64,000 nt of DNA, from the NCBI RefSeq assembly GCF_040931995.1, contig NZ_CP162412.1:2457001-2521000 (forward strand), given 5' to 3'. This document shows, piece after piece, positions 54,278 through 60,442 of the stretch. A program made the translations under genes and the position numbers. Source of the stretch: Pelagovum sp. HNIBRBA483. GTDB taxonomy: Bacteria > Pseudomonadota > Alphaproteobacteria > Rhodobacterales > Rhodobacteraceae. Within the stretch, counting starts at the first letter, position 1. Every line of letters begins with the position of its first letter. The notes beneath the pieces were generated by a model. That model was not told where the DNA came from. It saw only the letters and a program-made list of their open reading frames with translations, and did not search any database.

Positions 54278-55489
54278 ATGACTGACGCATTCATTTACGA
54301 CGCTGTTAGAACCCCGCGTGGAAAAGGTCGCAAAGACGGCAGCTTGCACGAGGTAACGTCCGTCAGGCTCAGCGCCCAAGTGCTCGACGCACTTCGCGAG
54401 CGCAACAACCTCGACGGCCATGCGGTCGAAGATGTCATTTGGGGCAATGTCACGCAGGTTGGTGAGCAAGGCGGCTGTCTCGCACGCTCCGCCGTTCTCG
54501 CTTCTCAACTGGATGAATCCATCCCAGGCCTCGCGATCAATCGCTTCTGTGCCTCGGGGATGGAGGCCGTCAATCTTGCCGCAAACCAGATCAAAGGCGG
54601 CGGCGGTGAGGCCTATATCGCTGGCGGCGTAGAGATGATGGGCCGCGTTGCGATGGGCTCGGACGGCGCTGCGATCGCCGTGGACCCGTCCCTCGCGATG
54701 GAAACGTACTTCGTCCCGCAAGGCATTTCCGCTGATATAATTGCAACCGAATACGGGTTTTCACGCGATGATGCCGATGCCTTGGCGGTAGAGAGCCAGA
54801 AGCGCGCCAAAGCAGCGTGGGATGATGGCCGGTTCGCGCGGTCCATCATCACCGTCAAGGACATCAACGGCCTACCGATCCTAGATCATGATGAATACAT
54901 GCGACCGGAGACGGACATGCAAACATTAGGCGCTCTCAAAGCCTCCTTCCGCGAAATGGGCGAGGTCATGCCCGGTTTCGACAAGGTCGCGCTGATGAAA
55001 TACCCCCATCTTGAGCGAATCAACCATATCCACCACGCGGGCAATTCCTCTGGCATCGTCGACGGCGCGGCGGGGCTCTTGATCGGCAGCAAAGAGTTCG
55101 GCGAAAAGTTCGGCCTAAAGCCCCGCGCCCGCATCCGCGCAACCGCCAAGATCGGCACAGATCCAACAATCATGCTTACTGGCCCCGTCCCCGTGACCGA
55201 GAAAATCCTCGCCGACAATGGCATGGCCATCTCAGATATCGACCTATTCGAAGTGAATGAGGCATTCGCATCCGTGGTGCTGCGCTTCATGCAGGCCTTC
55301 GATGTCGATCCCTCTTTGGTTAACGTCAACGGAGGCTCGATCGCTATGGGTCATCCCTTGGGCGCGACTGGCGCAATCATCCTTGGCACCCTGCTCGACG
55401 AGATGGAACGCAGCGACAAAGAGGTCGGGCTCGCAACCCTCTGCATCGCATCCGGCATGGGTGCCGCGACCATCATTGAACGCGTGTAA
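54278..55489 (+). CDS. Acetyl-CoA C-acyltransferase (thiolase)
   Basis: This 403-residue thiolase cleaves 3-ketoacyl-CoA with CoA to release acetyl-CoA. The acyl-accepting Cys91 is in INRFCASGMEAV. His359 is in GGSIAMGHPLGATGA, and the second active Cys389 is in TLCIASGMGAATI. The preceding gap of about 110 bases contains a GGGGC/GCCCC pair of weak hairpin potential. It is part of the dehydrogenase-thiolase-FadB set. Confidence 0.94.
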   Translation: MTDAFIYDAVRTPRGKGRKDGSLHEVTSVRLSAQVLDALRERNNLDGHAVEDVIWGNVTQVGEQGGCLARSAVLASQLDESIPGLAINRFCASGMEAVNLAANQIKGGGGEAYIAGGVEMMGRVAMGSDGAAIAVDPSLAMETYFVPQGISADIIATEYGFSRDDADALAVESQKRAKAAWDDGRFARSIITVKDINGLPILDHDEYMRPETDMQTLGALKASFREMGEVMPGFDKVALMKYPHLERINHIHHAGNSSGIVDGAAGLLIGSKEFGEKFGLKPRARIRATAKIGTDPTIMLTGPVPVTEKILADNGMAISDIDLFEVNEAFASVVLRFMQAFDVDPSLVNVNGGSIAMGHPLGATGAIILGTLLDEMERSDKEVGLATLCIASGMGAATIIERV

Positions 55490-55578: not shown

Positions 55579-57780
55579 ATGCCTGATTTTTCAATGACCA
55601 CTGACGGTGACGGCATTGCCACCATCACTTGGGATGTCCCCAACAAATCAATGAACGTCCTCTGCCTTGAGGGATGGGACGAGCTAGACACATTGGTTAC
55701 ATCCGCGCTCGAGGATCAGAACACCAAAGGCATCATCATCACCTCTGGCAAGAAGGACTTCGCCGGAGGTATGGACTTGAATGTCATTGCCAAGATGAAA
55801 GACAGCGCGGGCGATGATCCGGCCGCGGGTTTGATGCAGGGTTTGATGAAGTCCCATGCCATCCTTCGCAAGATTGAACGCGCGGGAATGGACCCCAAAA
55901 CCAACAAAGGCGGTAAACCTATTGTCGCAGCCCTCCCTGGAACCGCTCTTGGCATCGGTCTTGAAATTCCCCTTGCCTGCCATTTCATCATCGCCGCAGA
56001 TAATCCAAAAGCCAAGATCGGCTTACCAGAGATTAAGGTTGGCATCTTTCCCGGCATGGGTGGCACCACGCGCCTCGTTCGGAAAATGGGCGCAATGGCA
56101 GCCTCTCCGATCCTGCTTGAAGGCAAGCTCTTCTCACCGCAAAAAGCTGTTTCGGCAGGCTTGATCAACGAATGCGTTCCCCCTGAAAAGCTGCTTGAGA
56201 GGGCAAAGGAATGGATCTTGGCAGCGTCAGACTCAGACCTGCTCAAACCTTGGGATGCCAAAGGATACAAAATACCGGGTGGTGCGCCTTATCATCCAGC
56301 AGGCTTTATGACCTTTGTCGGCGCCAATGCGATGGTTCACGGTCAGACCCAAGGCGTTTACCCCGCCGCCAAGGCTTTGCTTTCGGCAGTTTATGAGGGT
56401 GCGCTTGTCCCCTTTGATACCGCATTAAAGATCGAGGCCCGCTGGTTCACCCATGTTCTGATGAACCCAAGCTCCTCTGCGATGATCCGCTCGCTGTTTG
56501 TGTCAAAAGGCGCTTTGGAAAAAGGCGCGAACCGGCCCGAGGCCCCAAATCAATCCGTTTCGAAACTCGGTGTGTTGGGCGCAGGCATGATGGGTGCAGG
56601 TATTGCCCTCGTCGCAGCACAGGCTGGGATCGAGGTTATCCTCCTCGATCAAACCGTCGAAGCGGCCGAGAAAGGCAAAAGCTACAGCACCAGCTACATG
56701 GACAAAGGGATCAGCCGGAGAAAGTCGACGCTAGAGCAGAAAGAGGCGCTCTTGGCACGCATTACGCCCACGTCAGACGCCAACACCCTTTCTGAGTGTG
56801 ATTTGATTATCGAGGCCGTCTTCGAAGACCCTTCAGTTAAGGCGGAGATCACCAAGCGGGTGGAAGCTATCATCAGTCCCGATTGCATCTTCGCAACAAA
56901 CACCTCGACACTGCCAATTACCGAACTAGCAGGCGCAAGTGAGCGACCCGAAAATTTCGTCGGAATTCACTTCTTCTCGCCGGTTGAGAAGATGCTGCTG
57001 GTGGAAATCATCAAAGGCAAAAAGACAGGCAATCGCGCTATCGCCAAGGCATTGGATTTTGTTCGCCAAATTCGAAAAACCCCGATCGTGGTGAACGATG
57101 CGCGCTTCTTCTACGCAAATCGCTGCATTATTCCCTACCTCAACGAGGGCATCAGAATGGTGCGAGAAGGCGTGGAACCGGCCCTGATCGAAAATGCGGC
57201 AAAGCTCGTCGGCATGCCGCTTGGCCCTCTTCAGCTTGTTGATGAAACCTCAATCGACCTTGGCGTGAAGATCGCCAAAGCGACGCGCAGCGCGCTAGGC
57301 GATGCATATCCCGATCAACAAGTCGACGACGTTCTGTTCTGGCTGGCTGAACAGGGGCGGTTGGGCAGAAAGTCTGCAGCAGGCTTCTATAGCTATGACG
57401 AAAAAGGCAAGCGCACTGGTCTTTGGGAAGGCCTGAAAAACAGGTTTGTTCCCCTCGACGAGCAGCCCGACCTTCAGTCTGTACAGGAACGCCTGTTGTT
57501 TGCCCAAGTGTTGGAGGCCGTGCGCGCACTGGAGGATGGCGTGCTTACGGATGTGAGGGAAGGCGATGTGGGCGCTATTCTGGGCTGGGGCTTTGCACCT
57601 TGGTCCGGTGGCCCATTCAGCTGGCTCGACATCATCGGCGCGCCCTATGCCGTCGAAAGATGCCAAGCCCTATCTCAGGAACACGGGGCGAGATTTGCGG
57701 TCCCCGAATTGCTGCAACAAATGGCGGATAAAGGCACACAATTCTACTCAACAGGTGCAGGGGAGAAAATCGCCTCCTAA
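55579..57780 (+). CDS. Bifunctional enoyl-CoA hydratase/3-hydroxyacyl-CoA dehydrogenase (FadB/FadJ type)
   Basis: This 733-residue protein performs hydration and the NAD-dependent oxidation of beta-oxidation. Residues 1-200 are crotonase-like (GGMDLNVIAK oxyanion region; PLACHFIIAADNPKAKIGLP and EIKVGIFPGMGGTTRLVRKM, with the catalytic glutamates). The dehydrogenase part starts near 330 (LGVLGAGMMGAGIALVAAQ) with NTSTLPITELA and GIHFFSPVEKMLLVEII (catalytic His). The C-terminal dimer domains follow (YANRCIIPYLNEG; FYSYDEKGKR). AAAAGGAG precedes the start. With the thiolase it can make the FadAB-like complex. Confidence 0.95.
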   Translation: MPDFSMTTDGDGIATITWDVPNKSMNVLCLEGWDELDTLVTSALEDQNTKGIIITSGKKDFAGGMDLNVIAKMKDSAGDDPAAGLMQGLMKSHAILRKIERAGMDPKTNKGGKPIVAALPGTALGIGLEIPLACHFIIAADNPKAKIGLPEIKVGIFPGMGGTTRLVRKMGAMAASPILLEGKLFSPQKAVSAGLINECVPPEKLLERAKEWILAASDSDLLKPWDAKGYKIPGGAPYHPAGFMTFVGANAMVHGQTQGVYPAAKALLSAVYEGALVPFDTALKIEARWFTHVLMNPSSSAMIRSLFVSKGALEKGANRPEAPNQSVSKLGVLGAGMMGAGIALVAAQAGIEVILLDQTVEAAEKGKSYSTSYMDKGISRRKSTLEQKEALLARITPTSDANTLSECDLIIEAVFEDPSVKAEITKRVEAIISPDCIFATNTSTLPITELAGASERPENFVGIHFFSPVEKMLLVEIIKGKKTGNRAIAKALDFVRQIRKTPIVVNDARFFYANRCIIPYLNEGIRMVREGVEPALIENAAKLVGMPLGPLQLVDETSIDLGVKIAKATRSALGDAYPDQQVDDVLFWLAEQGRLGRKSAAGFYSYDEKGKRTGLWEGLKNRFVPLDEQPDLQSVQERLLFAQVLEAVRALEDGVLTDVREGDVGAILGWGFAPWSGGPFSWLDIIGAPYAVERCQALSQEHGARFAVPELLQQMADKGTQFYSTGAGEKIAS

Positions 57781-57831: not shown

Positions 57832-57977
57832 TGAGTTTTATGTTCTCAGTTTTGGCTCAAAGTATTGAGAGCATTTGTCTGGCAGCCTATACACACACTC
57901 AATATGTGGGCACTCTGCCCCAAAGCGCCCCGAAAGCACAGTAACGCATCAAGGACTTCATCGGAGAAAAGTCACGG

Positions 57978-59018
57978 ATGGCACGGCGCAGAAAAACCGC
58001 ACTCAAGAAGTTCGAGCGCCTTGAAAGCCTCGCTTTATGGAGAAGTGAACCCGATGCGCACCGCCGAGAGGTGACGCTGTCATTCGGGATGTCATCTCTC
58101 ATCATCACCGACCATGCAGAGCGTCCGCTCGGCCACTGGTCACTCGCCACAATCGAGCGCTTGAACCCTGGCGGATCACCAGCACTCTATGCGCCGGACT
58201 CCGAAGCCAGCGAGACACTGGAAATCGAAGATAATTTGATGGTCGAAGCCATAGAGACCGTCAGAAAGGCGATAGGAAGAAAGCGCCCCAAACGTGGCCG
58301 CCTTCGCCTGACGATCGCATTAAGTGCAAGTGTGCTTATCTTCGCAGCCGTGTTTTTAGCCCTACCGAAAACGCTTCGCGACCAAGCTTCGAGAAGCTTG
58401 CCAAGCGCGACTCGCGCAGAAATCTCGCAGCTCATAAAAGAAGAACTCTGGAAAACGAATGGCCGCCCATGTAGCACTGCATTCTCAAAAAATGCGATTA
58501 GTCGCCTTCAAGAACGCTTGTTTGAACCGTTCAGCTCGAACCAGATCACCTTTGTAAAATTTGCAGGCGACGACGTATGGGAGCTGCCAGACGGAACATT
58601 CGTCGTTGGCTCAGCCTTGGTGGAAGATTTCGATACCCCCCACGTCGTTGCAGGGTTCATCGCGGCAGCGATTCTTGAGGCAGAGCGCACACCTGCAATT
58701 GACGCTTTTGTTAACAGTTTACGCATTTTTGAACTCATCGATCTGCTGACCTCAGGCACCGTCTCGGGTCAAGCCGCCTCTCGCTTCGCGCTGCAGATGA
58801 TCACCGCGCCAAGCGGATTGAAAGTTGACGACGCATTTGTCGACTTCGCTCAGGAAAAAGAACTCGCGCTATCGGCCTTGATCGGCGCGGTAACACCTTT
58901 GGAGGGCAGTTCGGAAGTTCTCAACGAAGCAGTGAACAACAATCAAGCTATAGCAACGCCCATTATGAGTGATGGCGATTGGGTCGCGCTACAAGCAATT
59001 TGCGAGGACCGCACCTAG
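57978..59018 (+). CDS. Membrane protein with an M48-peptidase-like domain lacking the zinc motif
   Basis: I do not recognise this 346-residue protein as a named family. It has a cytoplasmic N-terminal part (1-109), one membrane segment (110-131) and an extracytoplasmic part. In the latter, residues 197-236 follow the M48 metallopeptidase pattern: DVWELPDGTFVVGSALVEDF stands for the NAFALPGG-type strand, and the next helix (HVVAGFIAAAILEAE) occupies the place of HExxH but lacks both histidines. A later helix (SGQAASRFALQMI) stands where the third ligand (EADR) is expected. It overlaps the convergent SPOR gene by four bases. A scaffold or inhibitor role near a true protease is possible. Confidence 0.7.
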   Translation: MARRRKTALKKFERLESLALWRSEPDAHRREVTLSFGMSSLIITDHAERPLGHWSLATIERLNPGGSPALYAPDSEASETLEIEDNLMVEAIETVRKAIGRKRPKRGRLRLTIALSASVLIFAAVFLALPKTLRDQASRSLPSATRAEISQLIKEELWKTNGRPCSTAFSKNAISRLQERLFEPFSSNQITFVKFAGDDVWELPDGTFVVGSALVEDFDTPHVVAGFIAAAILEAERTPAIDAFVNSLRIFELIDLLTSGTVSGQAASRFALQMITAPSGLKVDDAFVDFAQEKELALSALIGAVTPLEGSSEVLNEAVNNNQAIATPIMSDGDWVALQAICEDRT

Positions 59019-60370
59019 CGCACGAACGCATCACGGAACCCGGCCGCGCGAATGCGCGACAGGGCGGATGAAACGTCGGACAGGGCAACCGGCCCAGCGG
59101 CAATCACCGCAAGCGACCGCCCGTTGCGCTCCATTTGATCTCGCTCAGTGGATAGCCCCAAGTCTTGCAACATTGCTTCGGTTCGTTCCGCATTGGCTGC
59201 TACTCCGAAAACCCCGACTTGAATGTATTTCACTCTGTCGCCGGATTGTACGTTCTGCGCAGTTGATCCGGTGGGAATTCCCCTTTGAGTGTTTAGACGT
59301 CCATCATTCCAAACCGGTTCATACCCTTCAGGAACCGCTGCGCTCTGAGGTTGCGAGGTAGTGGTGGAATTGCCGCTTAAGAGAGGCATGTGAGCTACAG
59401 CTCTTTTACCGTGTTGAGACGGTTGAGATGCATAGGGACGCTCGGCCTGCGGTACACAACGATAAGGCACCCCGTTACCGCCCCGAAAATACTCGTCGAT
59501 TGTTCCAATCACGTAGCGACATGCACCTACCCCAGCAACAGCAACAGGAACTGCTTCTGCCGCGGCGGGAGCCGAAAGGCGCGCTGGCGCTACAGGGGAA
59601 ATCTCCTCCTGCATAGGAGTTTGCGCCCCGATCGAAACCACACGGAAACGGCGATTTGGTCCAACGTTCCCGCAATCCAAAGCCGCTCCCGATTTCAAGA
59701 TATAGTTCCGCCCTGTCGCATTCGTATCGGCACAAATTTGCGCCAATGTAAGCATATTGCCCCGCTCTAAGGCAGTTTCTGGCATTGCTGTGGTTGCTGG
59801 TGCAGCTTCGGGTTGCTGCACTTGTAAAGGCGCTGAAGGCGCAGTTCCAGCAGCCACCGGCTTTTCTTCTTCCGTCCCACAATCCACCGGCTCTCCGGTT
59901 TCTTCCACGCGGTATCCTTGCTGGATGCCAGTCTTCCCGTCACAAACGTCGGAAAGCCTAAGTGAAGAGATTGCCGCCGCGGGTGCATCCTGTTCAGGCA
60001 CTTCCACGGCAGGCACCTTTGCTACGTCCGACGCCGCTTCAGTTCCCAGAGAAACAACCTGCGTCAACTGGGGGATCTCAATTATCAGATCGTCCGGGAT
60101 CTCGGGTGACAGGGCAGTTCTCTCATCTGTGGTCAGCGACGGCTCGAAACCACACATTGCTTCCCTTGCTCGATTGACGCGCGGAACCCACGATACAACA
60201 CCGCCGATCCCCGCACGGACAAACACGCAGCCTTCACTGTCGACGTATTGGCTCGCGGTATAGCCTTCGGGAGGAAGTTCCGCTGGTTGTCGTTGGGTTG
60301 TGAACTGAGCGCTCGCGCCAGTAGCTACCCCGCTTACGACAAAGGACAGCGCAACCAAGAGGCGATACAT
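59015..60370 (-). CDS. Secreted SPOR-domain protein with internal Cys-containing repeats
   Basis: The 451-residue precursor has a signal peptide (YRLLVALSFVVSGVATGASA). A low-complexity Pro/Ala-rich stretch is interrupted by two similar units near 136-164 and 205-233, each of the form L-x-L-x-x-(V/I)-C … G-x-x-(V/L)-D-C-G. Other cysteines at 48, 73, 284 and 305 make four pairs. Residues about 380-451 fit a SPOR domain (KYIQVGVFGVAANAERTEAM and GFRDAF), which binds denuded peptidoglycan. GAGGGAAGG precedes the ATG at 60370; a TTG two codons earlier is less likely. A periplasmic cell-division or wall-associated role is inferred. Confidence 0.78.
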   Translation of the reverse strand: MYRLLVALSFVVSGVATGASAQFTTQRQPAELPPEGYTASQYVDSEGCVFVRAGIGGVVSWVPRVNRAREAMCGFEPSLTTDERTALSPEIPDDLIIEIPQLTQVVSLGTEAASDVAKVPAVEVPEQDAPAAAISSLRLSDVCDGKTGIQQGYRVEETGEPVDCGTEEEKPVAAGTAPSAPLQVQQPEAAPATTAMPETALERGNMLTLAQICADTNATGRNYILKSGAALDCGNVGPNRRFRVVSIGAQTPMQEEISPVAPARLSAPAAAEAVPVAVAGVGACRYVIGTIDEYFRGGNGVPYRCVPQAERPYASQPSQHGKRAVAHMPLLSGNSTTTSQPQSAAVPEGYEPVWNDGRLNTQRGIPTGSTAQNVQSGDRVKYIQVGVFGVAANAERTEAMLQDLGLSTERDQMERNGRSLAVIAAGPVALSDVSSALSRIRAAGFRDAFVR

Positions 60371-60442
60371 CGACAAAACCTTCCCTCGCTAGAGACTGTT
60401 TGAAGATGCATGACAATCGCAAAACTGTAAAGGAAAACCCCT

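Follow-up and report, generated by a model that had tools for sequence, protein, structure and literature searches.

A putative membrane-anchored M48 pseudopeptidase, retained across a bacterial family, in which constraint appears to have moved to the cytoplasmic domain

The locus described here raises the question of whether a membrane protein that resembles M48 peptidases next to their active site, but shows no HExxH motif there, is a true descendant of such enzymes, and, if it is, what a protease that can no longer cut might be kept for. It lies in a 64,000-nucleotide stretch of the Pelagovum sp. HNIBRBA483 genome (contig NZ_CP162412.1, positions 2,457,001 to 2,521,000), the whole of which is called the window. 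The gene and its product are laid out as follows.

57963..57966 (+): GGAG, probable ribosome-binding site 11 bases 5' of the ATG, by its likeness to the consensus
57978..59018 (+): dead DUF7092-membrane-M48 protein, 346 aa, ATG start, stop codon included
58005..58292 (+): cytoplasmic N-terminal DUF7092-like domain, residues 10-105, the most conserved part in the dead family
58308..58364 (+): single transmembrane segment, residues 111-129 by hydropathy, preceded by RKAIGRKRPKRGRLR
58368..59015 (+): periplasmic degenerate M48 domain, residues 131-346, assigned by the C-domain profile comparison (E 2.3e-25)
58470..58472 (+): C165, conserved in 68/68 dead and 56/56 active rows
58584..58607 (+): LPDGTFVV, the M48 strand and turn ahead of the active-site helix, residues 203-210; LPGG in most relatives
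58665..58679 (+): former HExxH site, now A-A-I-L-E, residues 230-234 by the joint alignment
58815..58829 (+): former ExxxD site, residues 280-284, with the ligand Glu replaced by G280 and the Asp kept as D284
58971..59003 (+): C-terminal DGDWVALQAIC with C342, residues 332-342, a tail common to the active family

The gene was found in single copy in the window's genome. The membrane segment stood out clearly, with a mean hydropathy of 2.56 as against 1.32 for the next best stretch of the protein, and its place ahead of the M48 domain was as the earlier note had described it. Considering RKAIGRKRPKRGRLR before the span and the positive-inside rule, we infer that the N-terminus lies in the cytoplasm and the C-terminus in the periplasm. 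The cysteines that dead and active proteins have in common make C165-C342 a candidate periplasmic disulfide. Structure prediction was run for the window protein and its congener only, on two-row alignments, and returned pLDDT values of 33 and 40.

The single window protein matched nothing in Pfam (to E 10) or NCBIfam; PF01435 (Peptidase_M48) was absent from the Pfam matches of all 29 family members, and PF23368 (DUF7092) was matched in one of these 29 dead members, at E 0.0068. A profile of the 29 members was then compared with a profile of 16 active proteins taken from outside the window's family, here called f1; PF01435 is found in all 16 of the latter and PF23368 in 12. The two profiles aligned with an E-value of 1.7e-33 over 326 columns, a stretch that begins in the DUF7092 domain, crosses the membrane span and ends in the C-terminal tail, and the separate domains also aligned, the C-domain alone at E 2.3e-25 and the N-domain alone at E 6.5e-11. 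As controls, seven profiles that had been reversed or column-shuffled, together with one domain swap, reached a probability of only 0.1-0.4%, against which the C-domain value places the M48 likeness beyond chance. The architecture, a DUF7092 domain ahead of one span, is likewise that of the DUF7092-membrane-M48 proteins. A search of PDB profiles with the 29-member profile retrieved a sole match, the solved structure 3c37, annotated 'Peptidase, M48 family' (E 0.016); this alignment is weak and covers 116 profile positions, but it spans the PGG strand and the HExxH helix, and 3c37, unlike the dead protein, has an HE..H site there. Against a set of small LoiP-like M48 proteins, the C-domain scored a probability of 9.5% with the 29 members, 83% with the 68 dead rows of the alignment described below and 92.5% with the 16 divergent ones, while the reversed controls scored 0.1%. 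Judged from the E-values on the one hand and the LoiP-like comparison on the other, the M48 link is strong as long as it runs by way of the DUF7092-M48 proteins, and modest when these are set aside.

Among the closest known systems is the alphaproteobacterial DUF7092-membrane-M48 protein (PF23368 plus PF01435, with a DUF898 partner, PF05987), which the dead protein resembles over its whole length. The two have in common the N-domain, the span, the PGG strand, both cysteines and the W..L..IC tail, and in some genomes also the fad neighborhood; the dead form differs in the loss of HExxH and the ligand Glu, in the loss of the DUF898 neighbor, and in a constraint that has moved to the N-domain. 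HtpX (M48B) is also a membrane M48 peptidase, and an active relative weakly matches HtpX models (E 3e-6), but HtpX possesses an active site and several membrane spans, whereas the window protein has one span and no HExxH.

To locate the former catalytic residues, a joint alignment of 124 rows was used, 56 active and 68 dead, the latter including the window and two rows that are fragmentary or have a broken end (L024, L131); duplicate rows and a small M48 protein of the window's genome were left out. That small protein (L032, G000:C1:1516639-1517190, minus strand, 227 aa, HELGH) is the sole M48 above the Pfam cut-off in this genome, and its nearest NCBIfam model is LoiP, far below cut-off. In the window protein, the segment HVVAGFIAAAILEAE covers residues 222-236, and the HExxH columns fall on A230-A231-I232-L233-E234 within it; both histidines and the catalytic glutamate are thus gone, and the earlier note had correctly read this site as having no histidine pair. 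HExxH together with the ligand Glu and the Asp was complete in 56 of 56 active rows, whereas HE..H was present in none of the 68 dead ones, and a first histidine was kept in just one of these (L125 from genome G005, HALAQ). The commonest dead state was A-E-x-x-R, seen in 26 of the 68 rows, while the window reads A-A-x-x-E. The third zinc ligand, the Glu of ExxxD, survives in 7/68 dead rows as compared to 56/56 active ones, and is G280 in the window. Here the earlier note was half right: the SGQAASR that it took to replace the EADR-like ligand is indeed present, at residues 263-269, but the ligand position itself comes about 12 residues later.

LPDGTFVV aligns with the M48 '(A/L)PGG' strand, in keeping with the strand-turn already noticed, although the window's own turn is PDG and not PGG; over the dead rows, the Pro is kept in 67/68 and the first Gly in 60/68. 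Of the two cysteines, the one was found in 68 and the other in 67 of the 68 dead rows, and in 56 and 55 of the 56 active ones, and the tail Trp also survives. Taken together, the profile homology, AAILE at the HExxH columns and the single span bear out the description of a membrane-anchored M48 homolog without its catalytic site. Judged from its sequence, the window protein is no longer able to be an M48 zinc peptidase, a statement that covers M48 zinc chemistry only.

The distribution of the dead form was followed at three scales. Of 61 genomes searched, 37 had a match, namely 37/37 of those in f1 (the window included) and 0/24 outside it; two of the 37, G009 and G018, carry the active form. 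Across 289 genomes of the class, the 29-member profile gave 53 matches, with E-values down to 1e-23 outside f1, and in the subset of these outside loci that was read (L038-L063), 26 of 26 carry HExxH, the 16 proteins of the active profile being drawn from them. Lastly, in 149 f1 genomes, one per genus, the profile matched 147; only the active form was found in four (G389, G343, G009 and G018), and there was no match to the dead-form profile in G410, which is 76% complete, or in G419. By our own count the dead form is thus present in 143 of 149 f1 genera, the catalytic site having been read in 68 rows. Full-length active proteins (E below 1e-80) occur in 36 of the 149 genomes, with a partial one in G430; dead and full-length active forms stand together in 32 genera (33 with the partial one), whereas about 110, also by our own count, have the dead protein without an active DUF7092-M48 paralog. 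Scans of viral contigs yielded no further relatives, the six pattern matches there not being relatives.

Retention on this scale is matched by signs of selection within the gene. The window protein and that of the one congener compared are 51% identical, both being divergent members of the dead family, and the gene pair differs at 0.38, 0.30 and 0.63 of codons at codon positions 1, 2 and 3, respectively; within the N-domain, the corresponding values are 0.18, 0.12 and 0.56. These differences show purifying selection on the dead gene. The reading frame is intact over the dead family, and in its core set of 52 rows, 63 positions are at least 90% conserved. On this evidence we regard the window protein as a pseudopeptidase, i.e., a protein of M48 descent that has lost its catalytic residues and whose gene is kept under selection; its identity, origin and loss of catalysis, taken jointly and leaving aside what it does, we consider very probable.

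As to where selection acts, the two halves of the protein were compared by mean pairwise identity, first for the N-domain and then for the M48 core. The active proteins scored 0.29 and 0.63 within f1 (30 rows) and 0.25 and 0.42 outside it (26 rows), whereas the dead core set scored 0.54 and 0.44 (52 rows) and the divergent dead rows 0.32 and 0.21 (16 rows). In ten genomes that hold both forms, the active proteins averaged 0.35 for the N-domain and 0.64 for the core, and the dead ones 0.52 and 0.40; the core exceeded the N-domain in 45/45 active comparisons and the N-domain exceeded the core in 44/45 dead ones, although the 45 comparisons share genomes and are not 45 independent tests. As read from these alignments, constraint is inverted: active proteins guard the M48 core most, and dead ones the cytoplasmic domain. 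This inversion is the strongest clue to function, in that it is the cytoplasmic side which selection guards.

The origin of the dead form was approached through phylogeny and gene order. In a careful tree of 41 rows, built without the catalytic columns, the 20 dead rows fell on one side of a single branch (bootstrap 100, SH-aLRT 99), which was present in 100% of 200 bootstrap trees, and a quick tree of 69 rows agreed (SH-aLRT 99). The first branch among the dead rows was G005, and the nearest active protein on the other side was that of G389. The tree is unrooted, and the root was set among the active proteins because only active ones occur in the outside families that were read. The genes that flank the dead M48 gene in the window are as follows.

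54278..55489 (+): thiolase (fadA-like), Thiolase_N and Thiolase_C, upstream in the same orientation
55579..57780 (+): multifunctional enoyl-CoA hydratase/3-hydroxyacyl-CoA dehydrogenase (fadB/fadJ-like), ECH_1 and 3HCDH, directly upstream
59015..60376 (-): convergent neighbor, downstream, conserved in relatives by synteny

The convergent neighbor matched nothing in Pfam or NCBIfam, and from the look of its sequence we presume it to be a SPOR-repeat protein; it adjoins the dead gene in 40 of the 78 loci inspected, a tally in which some places occur twice.

In the active genomes G018 and G009, the order is fadA-fadB-DUF898-active M48, all in one orientation, the fadB of G018 being 67% identical to that of the window, and in G389, it is acyl-CoA ligase-DUF898-active M48. 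Among dead loci, G016 reads fadA-fadB-ligase-dead M48; in G005, an unrelated gene on the opposite strand separates the upstream ligase from the dead gene; and the window reads fadA-fadB-dead M48, the best ligase match (62% identical) being located elsewhere in the genome, at C1:1208452. DUF898 is directly upstream in 55/56 active rows and 0/67 dead rows, whereas the ligase is upstream in 40 of the 67 dead rows, the other 27 often having little flank. PF05987 was found in 43 of the 149 f1 genomes; every one of the 36 with a full-length active protein has it, and the window's genome does not. A profile search for remnants of DUF898 was negative at the dead loci of G005 (in the gap between ligase and dead gene), G371, G016, G002 and the window; the same search gave 417 bits in G389, the positive control. 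In no single active genome was the fadA-fadB order seen along with the ligase order. Gene order agrees with, and suggests, descent in place, with few genomes behind the in-place origin. In such a descent, the ancestor would have been an inner-membrane protease whose single span joined a DUF7092 domain in the cytoplasm to an M48 zinc-peptidase domain in the periplasm, its gene lying directly behind that of the DUF898 membrane protein, and near fatty-acid oxidation genes where the older order shows. In the ancestor of most of f1, the DUF898 partner would have been lost and the zinc site destroyed, the gene being kept thereafter.

Some features of these neighborhoods are of interest in their own right. 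At the G005 locus (L169), the gene between the ligase and the dead M48 gene sits where DUF898 stands in G389; by resemblance, we take it to be an isopropylmalate or tartrate dehydrogenase. The active DUF7092-M48 gene with its upstream DUF898 gene (rows L038-L093, L124, L141-L143) forms a conserved, uncharacterised pair of protease and membrane protein. Furthermore, in five genomes without the DUF7092 form (G036, G378, G400, G428, G435), the neighbor of a DUF898 gene is an M48 gene of another kind, which suggests that the pairing extends beyond the DUF7092-M48 subfamily.

What the retained protein does can be approached from three observations, the loss of the catalytic residues, the retention over the family and the better conservation of the cytoplasmic domain, which together make a binding or signalling protein probable, rather than an enzyme. 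Within the pseudopeptidase reading we favor a non-catalytic transmembrane adaptor or sensor, tentatively and at a little under an even chance; this step draws only on where conservation lies. The periplasmic pseudo-M48 domain, closed by the disulfide, would bind an envelope protein or peptide through the strand retained beside the former active site, and the cytoplasmic DUF7092 domain, as the most constrained part, would pass the binding on or recruit a cytosolic partner.

A different use of the same strand would be that of a periplasmic chaperone-like protein, in which the M48 strand binds unfolded envelope proteins after cutting was lost. Most dead members still have the LPGG strand, as the above counts of Pro and Gly attest. 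The bacterial precedent for such a role is E. coli BepA, which is not known to carry DUF7092 or a membrane anchor. Like the dead protein, BepA has a periplasmic M48 domain with a substrate-binding edge strand, and this strand was needed for proteolytic as well as chaperone-like activity; unlike the dead protein, it is an active protease, and its protease-dead E137Q form was itself weakened in the chaperone-like assay (PMC8423444). A second precedent, RF1-Oma1 of sugar beet, is a retained M48 paralog with a broken zinc motif and a binding role; it binds preSATP6 and, rather than degrading its target, changes the complex state of the latter (PMC7154926, PMC6894571). The parallel has limits, since RF1-Oma1 carries only a point change in HExxH (HQVGH), is plant mitochondrial and is known from one crop lineage, whereas in the bacterial protein every ligand is gone, and a bacterial family has retained it throughout. 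Nonetheless, conservation in the dead protein is lower in the periplasmic domain than in the cytoplasmic one, and the window's turn is PDG, not PGG, and we consider the chaperone-like role rather unlikely.

Pseudoenzymes often regulate their active cousins, and the earlier note had proposed as much for this protein. As a dominant-negative or allosteric regulator, it would bind an active M48 relative or occupy the substrates of the latter; besides the general precedent, the genera that hold both forms are compatible with this, and the window's genome does keep one small active M48 protein of 227 aa. However, that protein belongs to another subfamily and has no DUF7092; it was all that a search for active M48 paralogs in this genome, as the note had advised, brought up. 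Neither a full-length active DUF7092-M48 protein nor DUF898 occurs in the window's genome, the active paralog is likewise missing from the roughly 110 genera mentioned above, and the better-conserved domain is the cytoplasmic one, which is not where contact with a periplasmic protease would take place. The regulatory idea is weakened by the missing paralog and appears improbable; for the same reason, regulation of an active DUF7092-M48 paralog was rejected as the main reading.

The neighboring genes could also be taken to mean that the protein is a membrane scaffold for acyl-CoA metabolism, its cytoplasmic domain holding the FadAB complex or the neighboring CoA ligase for fatty acids or methylthiopropionate. 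The ligase stands upstream in the majority of the dead rows and also near the nearest active relative, and fadA and fadB are the upstream neighbors of the window gene. One ligase beside a dead gene (L127:3765-5423, minus strand) scored above cut-off as a long-chain-fatty-acid-CoA ligase (NF004674), its next best model, 3-methylthiopropionyl-CoA ligase, being below cut-off; a link of this ligase to marine sulphur metabolism is possible. But these neighbors predate the loss of catalysis and may be mere bystanders, and since the ligase was found beside the gene in 40 of the 67 dead rows and lies elsewhere in the window's genome, the partner may be a different one. We consider the scaffold quite improbable. 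That the gene is a decaying pseudogene or an open reading frame without function, for which one could cite the divergence of the window and its congener and the absence from the window of even the former-HExxH Glu that 42/68 dead rows keep, is highly improbable in view of the intact frame over the family, the purifying selection read from the codon positions and the strongly conserved positions of the core set.

Dead peptidases as such are already known. In the open-licence literature, we found no paper on DUF7092, none that pairs DUF898 with M48 and none that pairs 'pseudopeptidase' with M48, and in a review of metallo-pseudopeptidases, the terms M48, HtpX and Oma1 were absent (PMC11266112). 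Extending the adaptor or sensor reading to its evolutionary history, it is possible, though doubtful, that what was once a periplasmic protease became, without leaving its locus, a receptor-like transmembrane protein: after the loss of DUF898, its cutting domain would have become a ligand-binding or structural one and the selective weight would have moved to DUF7092, leaving a near-universal envelope-to-cytoplasm component of f1, possibly tied to acyl-CoA metabolism. A bacterial M48 pseudopeptidase kept across a whole family is a rare stepwise record of the passage from enzyme to non-enzyme, its stages being the active relatives in the older gene order (G018, G009, G389) and the first-branching G005, which still has one histidine.
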